Assembly: GCF_030295425.1 (NCBI RefSeq)
Contig: NZ_AP027081.1
Span: 248,001-312,000, forward strand
Reading direction: 5' to 3'
Source of the DNA: Mesoterricola sediminis
GTDB lineage: Bacteria; Acidobacteriota; Holophagae; Holophagales; Holophagaceae
Length of the DNA: 64,000 bases
Below are positions 57,316-61,271 of the stretch, one piece after another (positions within the stretch are counted from its first letter, which is position 1; each line of letters starts with the position of its first letter). The notes below the pieces were generated by a model that saw only the letters and a program-made list of their open reading frames with translations, was not told where the DNA came from and did no database searches. The position numbers and the translations under genes are program-made.

Positions 57316-59418
<2,103 letters not shown>

Positions 59419-59708
59419 GGATTCTCCTGGGGCGCTGCCCCTTTGGGCTCCCTTGCGCGATCCCTCCATGAAACCCTCCGCCGGGGTGGTTGGGAGGTGG
59501 GCTTCCTGCAGAGGTCGCTGCCGCCAGGAGCGAGGACGTCGGCGCTTCAAGGATAACACCCATTATTTCTAAGCGCCTATCGCTATGTTTATGGCTCCCG
59601 GGAGTCTGTTCCGCCGGCGGCCCAGGGTCCCAACTTTTTTTCGTGTCCGGCAATCTTGCGCGATTGGTGGGTTTACCATACTTTCCTCGCATAACCTCGG
59701 AGGGACGC

Positions 59709-59936
59709 ATGATCATCAGGGCTGAATGGCCGGGCTACGTCGTGGGCGTCCTGGTTAGCCCGGGGCAGGAAGTCGAAGAGGATGAGTCCCTTATGCTTCT
59801 CGAAGGCACGGATAGCGGCCACACCCCCTTCTACGTCAGCGCGCCCGAATCCGGGAAGATCAAGCGGATCCTGCTCGAGGAGGGGGACTTCGCGGAGGAG
59901 GATGACGAACTCCTCGAATTGGCCGAGATGGAGTGA
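59709..59936 (+). CDS. Small lipoyl/biotinyl-fold protein without the attachment lysine
   Basis: 75 residues from ATG 59709 with GGAGGGA upstream. The sequence follows the lipoyl/biotin carrier hammerhead: PGYVVGVLVSPGQEVEEDESLMLLE, a hairpin, VSAPESGKIKRILLEEGDFAEEDDELLELAE. Where carriers have MKM or DKA the protein reads EGTDSGHTP (residues 32-40) and no lysine is found before K50, so biotin or lipoate cannot be attached at the normal site. Very acidic. It lies 51 nt before dihydroorotase and divergently from pnp; role unknown. An N-terminal extension in the same frame back to 59490 is not supported. The 290-nt gap to pnp holds no other gene. Confidence 0.7.
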   Translation: MIIRAEWPGYVVGVLVSPGQEVEEDESLMLLEGTDSGHTPFYVSAPESGKIKRILLEEGDFAEEDDELLELAEME

Positions 59937-59987: not shown

Positions 59988-61271
59988 ATGCCCCTTCTCA
60001 TCAAGAACGCTCGGCTGGTCGATCCGTCCCAGGGCCTCGATGAAACCACGTCCCTGATCATTGACCAGGGGAAGGTGGCTTCCGTGGGGGTGGGACTTCC
60101 GGAGCCCGCCGGCGCGGAGCTCCTCGATGCGGCGGGGCGTCTGGTGCTGCCCGGCTTCATCGACTTGCATGTGCATTTCCGGGAACCAGGGCAGACGGCC
60201 AAGGAATGCATCGAAACGGGTTGCCGTGCGGCCGTCGCGGGGGGGTTCACCTCCGTGTGCGCCATGGCCAATACCAAGCCGGTGAACGATTCGGTGGCCA
60301 TCACCGAGATGATGTTGAACCGTGCGAACAAGGCGAACCTTTGCCGGTACTTCCCCCTGGGGACGGTGACGAAGGGCGCCGCCGGCGAGGAACTCGCCGA
60401 CTACGGCACCCTCAAGGCCGCGGGGTGCGTCGCCTTCAGCGACGATGGGCTGCCGGTCATGAACGCCTCCATCATGCGCCGGGCCCTGGAATACACGGCC
60501 TGGCTCGGCGTTCCCGTGGTGGCCCACGAGGAGGACGTCAATCTGGCCGCCAAGGGCTACATGAACGAAGGCGCCGTCAGCGCCTTCCTCGGTTGCCACG
60601 GCATCCCCGCTGCCGCCGAGGAGGCCATGGTGGCCCGCGACATCGTGCTCGCTGAGCACACCGGCGGCCACCTTCACCTCGCCCATCTCAGCACCCGCGG
60701 GGCCCTCCGCCAGGTGCGCGAAGCCAAGGCCCGCGGCCTGAACGTGACCTGCGAAGTGACCCCCCATCATTTCGCCCTCACCGACCGGGAGATGACCCGG
60801 TTCGACGCGGATTTCAAGATGAACCCGCCCCTCCGCACCGAGGCGGATGTGGAGGCGGTCCTGGAGGCGATCGCGGACGGGACGGTGGATGCCATCGCGA
60901 CCGATCACGCGCCCCATGCCTGGGATGACAAGGAATGCGAACTGCGCGACGCCTCCTTCGGTGTGATTGGCCTCGAGACGGCCTTCCCCCTGGCCCTGGA
61001 AATCCTCGTCGGGCGGGGGGTGATCGGCCTGTCCCGGGCGGTCGAACTCTTCACCCAGGGACCCGCGCGGGTCTTCCATCTGGATCGCCTGGGGCTGGGC
61101 AGCCTCGCGCCCGGGTCCGAGGCCGATTTCGTCCTGGTGGACCCGGAAGCCCGCATCGACGTGGATCGGGCCTTCGTCCAGTCCCGGAGCTTCAACACCC
61201 CCTTCAAGGGCTGGAGCCTGCCCGGGCGGGTCGTGGGGACGTGGGTCGGCGGGCGCCGGGTCTGGGGCTGA
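59988..61271 (+). CDS. pyrC: Dihydroorotase
   Basis: 427 residues, third step of pyrimidine synthesis. Metal site DLHVHFREPG (about 58-67), class I motif DDGLPVMN, VVAHEED, HLHLAHLST and the catalytic TDHAPH; C-terminal GSEADFVLVDPEA and SRSFNTPFKGWSLPGRVVGTWVGG are typical of the PyrC class I group. ATG 59988 with CGGAG upstream is favoured over ATG 59964. It ends 3 nt before the convergent WecA-like gene. Confidence 0.95.
   Translation: MPLLIKNARLVDPSQGLDETTSLIIDQGKVASVGVGLPEPAGAELLDAAGRLVLPGFIDLHVHFREPGQTAKECIETGCRAAVAGGFTSVCAMANTKPVNDSVAITEMMLNRANKANLCRYFPLGTVTKGAAGEELADYGTLKAAGCVAFSDDGLPVMNASIMRRALEYTAWLGVPVVAHEEDVNLAAKGYMNEGAVSAFLGCHGIPAAAEEAMVARDIVLAEHTGGHLHLAHLSTRGALRQVREAKARGLNVTCEVTPHHFALTDREMTRFDADFKMNPPLRTEADVEAVLEAIADGTVDAIATDHAPHAWDDKECELRDASFGVIGLETAFPLALEILVGRGVIGLSRAVELFTQGPARVFHLDRLGLGSLAPGSEADFVLVDPEARIDVDRAFVQSRSFNTPFKGWSLPGRVVGTWVGGRRVWG

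Follow-up and report, generated by a model that had tools for sequence, protein, structure and literature searches.

The window, a stretch of 64,000 nucleotides of the Mesoterricola sediminis genome, encodes a stand-alone biotinyl-domain protein in which the lysine of the attachment hairpin is replaced. This protein is almost certainly a functional, lysine-free paralogue of a biotin carrier, and the comparison of sequences indicates that its gene is probably a tandem duplicate of the gene for a stand-alone carrier. As to its role, we tentatively propose that it serves biotin-dependent carboxylases as a non-catalytic subunit for docking or regulation, by analogy with the plant BADC (biotin attachment domain-containing) proteins.

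The gene and its surroundings in the window

The open reading frame (positions 59709-59936, forward strand) comprises 75 residues plus the stop codon, and its assignment draws on the reading frame itself, a Pfam match, an alignment and a predicted model. Just 5' of the ATG lies a likely ribosome-binding site region with GGAGG (59695-59708, forward strand), and similar purine-rich stretches also precede the orthologues in the upstream regions of 19 sequences. The downstream neighbour is pyrC (59988-61271, forward strand), which codes for a dihydroorotase of 427 residues from this ATG (NCBIfam dihydroorotase, 1.3e-138; TIGR00857, 410 bits, cut-off 279), and the divergent upstream neighbour is pnp (57316-59418, reverse strand), for a polynucleotide phosphorylase of 700 residues (TIGR03591, 958 bits, cut-off 525). 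Both are flanking genes and lie outside the proposed mechanism. An upstream RNA element was considered and rejected, the single Rfam match, to mir-296, being below threshold (22.9 bits against 66) and taken as chance. The promoter scan gave one weak site on the opposite strand, no terminator was found, and the search for phage families returned none.

Predicted fold

The protein had been described from the window alone as a fit to biotin or lipoyl carriers, and this is borne out by both domain and structure comparisons. The Pfam family PF00364 (Biotin_lipoyl) matches with an E-value of 1.6e-8 and 34.7 bits (cut-off 22.1), next to weak matches to Pfam HlyD. The NCBIfam models for stand-alone biotin carriers match weakly; the best score, 35.1 bits, falls short of the equivalog cut-off of 95 bits of NF006079 (PRK08225). 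Structure prediction, proposed at the outset as a check, returned a biotinyl fold: with a mixed alignment of orthologues and carriers, AlphaFold gave a pLDDT of 91.9 and a pTM of 0.74, the prediction from 30 close orthologues alone having been poor (pLDDT 42.9) until the carriers were added. Foldseek found 93 matches in the PDB at E <= 0.001, and the best 50 of the 93 belong to biotin carriers and carboxylases. The top structural match is the Pyrococcus horikoshi carrier 2ejf_C (Z 14.9, rmsd 0.7 over 69 residues for the predicted model), and the model lies 0.7-0.9 Å from the Pyrococcus biotin carrier over those 69 residues. E2 and HlyD-type domains score lower (Z about 12.3-12.5), and the predicted model is nearest to biotinyl domains, with the biotinyl/lipoyl barrel that characterises a biotin carboxyl carrier.

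A reshaped hairpin without lysine

What the protein does not have is the attachment lysine that such carriers present in their hairpin ([AS]MKM). When 58 sequences are aligned, Thr34-Asp35-Ser36 fall on the MKM columns, as the original prediction had it, with Asp35 on the column of the attachment lysine. Alignment and conservation delimit the hairpin to codons 32-40 (EGTDSGHTP, 59802-59828, forward strand), and reveal a three-residue insertion, His38-Thr39-Pro40, which had been overlooked. In relatives, the neighbouring carrier has ESMKMQ at this hairpin. The translation agrees that no lysine precedes K50, the first lysine of the window protein, and in the predicted model K50 is on a different strand from the hairpin.

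A search for conserved small homologues without the lysine, another of the checks suggested, yielded 53 distinct orthologues drawn from 119 loci, leaving out a fragment of 39 residues at the edge of a contig (L123) and three proteins of the g8 group, which had their best score against their own query. None of the 53 has a lysine at residues 30-46, and Asp35 is found in all of them. A hairpin lysine in close homologues had been named as the result that would point to a sequence error; it is absent throughout this set, and a displaced lysine occurs in one distant genus. Pro8, Gly9, Gly19, Glu32, Asp35 and Pro46 are invariant, Thr34 and Phe41 are kept in 52 of the 53, Trp7 is near-invariant, and residue 38 is Arg or His throughout. 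Residue 50 is a lysine in 75% of the orthologues, and five of the 53 have no lysine at all.

Pooling the pairs with a synonymous difference of 0.05-0.55, the dN/dS of the lysine-free protein is 0.119 (578 of 1378 pairs), close to the 0.102 of its lysine-bearing twin (383 of 561 pairs). The hairpin is somewhat freer than the whole lysine-free protein (0.168), and that of the twin is not (0.104). At six loci without the twin, the values for 15 pairs of the lysine-free protein are 0.02-0.11, and the g9 pair gives 0.10. With no lysine in the hairpin region of any orthologue, an invariant Asp35 and a dN/dS near 0.12, the missing lysine is neither a sequencing error nor a relic. The lysine-free protein is also strongly acidic, with a mean of 21.7 Asp plus Glu against 5.1 Lys plus Arg, and the twin is less so (13.7 against 4.6).

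The displaced lysine occurs in g8, a small-genome genus (0.9-1.2 Mb), in three genomes of which the lengthened hairpin reads ENKSMEG (L035:8981-9214, L036:8426-8659 and L183), the lysine being aligned one position before that of the carriers. Two of these proteins were included in the tree described below, where they nest on a long branch inside the lysine-free clade (97/80 with the protein of G014), and for this reason the g8 lysine is best read as secondary.

Distribution in the Holophagaceae

In the searches made, strong matches were seen only in the Holophagaceae, a family of soil and water bacteria within the Acidobacteriota. When 60 relatives were searched, 33 of the 37 Holophagaceae genomes gave matches of about 1e-12 or stronger, among them all 26 with a completeness of 90% or more; the four without a match are 64-83% complete. 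In a sample of 396 genomes of the phylum, the matches listed include 39 Holophagaceae genomes, two of them of 1.2 Mb, and no member of the family is among the 20 unmatched genomes listed (239 further genomes were unmatched). The best match outside the family, among those listed, is at 2.9e-12. Homologues outside the Holophagaceae were considered and set aside: those listed are weaker matches, and all 19 carriers sampled elsewhere in the phylum have the hairpin lysine, 18 as MKM, which came from a selection keeping frames with MKM or DKA, and one as MKL. The contig scan gave at least 58 loci, 52 with the lysine-free protein and six others; the four of these six that were examined code for a lipoyl E2 and, in three cases, for ordinary biotin carriers.

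Probable origin by duplication, and loss of the twin

In Geothrix and its relatives, the usual gene order is a divergent YchF gene, the lysine-free gene, a gene for a 70-residue carrier with an ESMKM hairpin, a crotonase gene (PF00378) and a cation-efflux transporter gene. This carrier gene directly follows the lysine-free gene in 31 of the 52 loci listed. The original prediction saw no hint in the position between pnp and pyrC, and this stands for the window but not for these other loci, where the next gene is a lysine-bearing version of the same domain. Besides similar length, predicted fold and neighbourhood, the two proteins have in common A5 E6, G9, V16, G19, V22, E24, L28, E32 and P46. 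The neighbour of the g8 protein passes the NF006079 cut-off (100.6 bits), and the Geothrix-type neighbour that was tested does not (78.6 bits).

A tree of the two was built without the hairpin columns. In this tree, 24 lysine-free and g8 proteins group together (92/95), and a further branch (87/82) unites them with eight neighbouring carriers, apart from the 26 other carriers. As the lysine-free protein and the neighbouring carrier are joined, the former probably derives from a duplicate of the stand-alone carrier; with 62 columns, an unsettled bootstrap and neither branch at the level that the program marks with a star, the duplication is likely rather than proven.

A finer count of the neighbours was made at the 46 listed loci where the downstream sequence extends for 1.2 kb or more. 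The first downstream gene is the carrier in 28, the crotonase in six, the efflux gene in three, the efflux gene followed by pyrC in two, and pyrC directly, as in the window, in five, with none of the tested genes in the remaining two. An obligate partnership with the neighbouring carrier was therefore rejected, since in 18 of these 46 loci the twin is not the next gene and the lysine-free gene is retained. At L083, L097, L101 and L117, inspection of the DNA by eye shows a short leftover piece of the carrier gene that lacks the hairpin. The genome-wide look for the twin covered G000, G013 and G021, and in the window's genome no stand-alone 70-residue carrier is found among the eight Biotin_lipoyl matches above cut-off. 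The working copy has been lost from this spot in several lineages and the lysine-free copy kept under purifying selection, which is unusual in itself.

Directly behind an intact carrier gene, a partial second match (35-38 residues, 84-92% identical) was observed at L082, L085, L091, L096, L104 and L109, an apparent partial tandem duplication; at L082, L104 and L109 it is seen as protein and corresponds to the C-terminal half. 

The crotonase and cation diffusion facilitator genes that follow the carrier pair (L031:8765-10485 and equivalents) have no evident functional link to it. In five of the 52 loci listed, the efflux gene still adjoins the lysine-free gene where carrier and crotonase are gone. 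In 43 of 63 loci, a gene of the SPFH/Band-7 family (L084:12298-13341 and equivalents) is found within several kb of the lysine-free gene, on the opposite strand. These loci comprise both Geothrix-type and pyrC-type contexts (the latter including L037, L038, L040, L041, L074, L081 and L110), which supports orthology across contexts and allows for other partners.

Possible role and competing explanations

A docking piece is the simplest reading of a protein that kept the shape of a carrier and lost its attachment site. We propose that the barrel would show a carrier-like surface to a biotin-dependent carboxylase, at its biotin carboxylase or carboxyltransferase, and that the reshaped hairpin would suit it to a part in assembly or regulation, like that of plant BADC in plastid acetyl-CoA carboxylase. 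Such a role is preferred to that of a carrier because the biotin site is replaced, often beside a working twin. The earlier suggestion of a retired carrier agrees with the biotinyl fold, the grouping with a true carrier, the selection and the absence of the lysine; the binding or regulatory function that went with it is presumed, and so are direct binding to a carboxylase and the direction of any effect. The case for a carboxylase as the partner comes from ancestry and linkage. A gene for a biotin-dependent acyl-CoA carboxyltransferase lies 10-17 kb from the pair in six of the 12 genomes examined (G008, G012, G018, G020, G025 and G035) and not at that distance in the other six (G000, G001, G004, G009, G013 and G014). 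Linkage alone does not single out carboxylases, given that the efflux and SPFH/Band-7 genes are linked as well. In G013, the strong biotin-carrier domains are confined to a fused carboxylase of 1868 residues (L220:2841-8444), with biotin carboxylase, biotin carrier and carboxyltransferase matches, and a 1188-residue frame, and searches of both families found no separate carboxyltransferase or biotin carboxylase subunit there; in G021, they are confined to one frame of 1496 residues. Both genomes keep the lysine-free gene, and its persistence in G013, together with its outliving the twin and the crotonase, argues against its serving one complex exclusively.

The same observations lend weight to another explanation, in which the barrel was recruited outside biotin enzymes, for example to act as an adaptor or to regulate in response to a metal or ligand, and the linkage to the carrier is a trace of the duplication. 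The survival of the gene at many loci without carrier and crotonase, and in G013 with its long fused frames, would be expected, and the linkage of the efflux and SPFH/Band-7 genes in more than one context, the strong acidity, the invariant Pro8 and Asp35 and the near-invariant Trp7, Thr34 and Phe41 are all in line with it. This is a serious possibility, if a somewhat doubtful one, but the closeness of the model to the Pyrococcus carrier and the grouping with a working biotin carrier in the tree speak against it. In 2ejf, the best structural match, the matched chain is a carrier in complex with a ligase, and a non-acceptor mimic that binds biotin ligase, tuning the biotinylation of true carriers, would presumably suit all members of the family whatever their carboxylases; we consider this unlikely, since a ligase would have to recognise a hairpin that has gained three residues and lost MKM.

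That the protein is still a carrier, modified at K50 or at the displaced lysine of the small-genome genus, could be argued from the frequency of lysine at residue 50 and from the ENKSM hairpin of the three g8 proteins. It is very unlikely in view of the five orthologues without any lysine, the separation of K50 and hairpin on different strands of the predicted model, and the nested position of the g8 pair, whose lysine looks secondary. Decay of the lysine-bearing twin itself at several Geothrix-type loci might suggest that the lysine-free gene is likewise a functionless, decaying carrier relic, but this is hardly tenable, being already contradicted by the selection data, both pooled and at the twin-less loci, and by the retention of the gene across the family, down to genomes of 1.2 Mb. 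Taking the docking proposal further, one bacterial family would have independently evolved a dedicated carrier mimic that docks on carboxylases to assemble or throttle them and has outlived its parent carrier, a bacterial counterpart of BADC; we offer this fuller scenario as a speculative one.

Comparison with known systems

From the stand-alone biotin carrier (PRK08225/NF006079), represented by the neighbouring ESMKM gene, the lysine-free protein differs in having Asp for the attachment lysine, the hairpin insertion and a more acidic composition. The lipoyl-like domains of HlyD/RND adaptors also have a barrel-sandwich fold and are not known to have an attachment lysine; the window protein matches them weakly in Pfam and with Z of about 12.5. 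Those domains, in contrast, are found inside long adaptor (membrane-fusion) proteins, whereas the window protein is one small domain on its own, and its Z to biotin carriers is higher.

The closest likeness is to plant BADC. In the literature searched, with most subscription journals outside its reach, no bacterial lysine-free stand-alone carrier mimic was found. BADC is a paralogue of a working carrier without the biotinylation motif; it is reported by some to be the 'glue' in the assembly of plastid acetyl-CoA carboxylase and by others to inhibit that enzyme, and such non-biotinylated carrier-like subunits are termed unique to the plant enzyme (PMC11926652). The window protein is likewise a motif-less paralogue of a working carrier, by a tree grouping of moderate support, but it is bacterial, 75 residues long and confined to one family in the searches made, and this distribution suggests an origin independent of plant BADC. 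If true, a bacterial case of the BADC type would point to repeated evolution of such mimics, and the named Geothrix isolates would offer a 75-residue system in which to study the control of carboxylases by a lysine-free carrier mimic.
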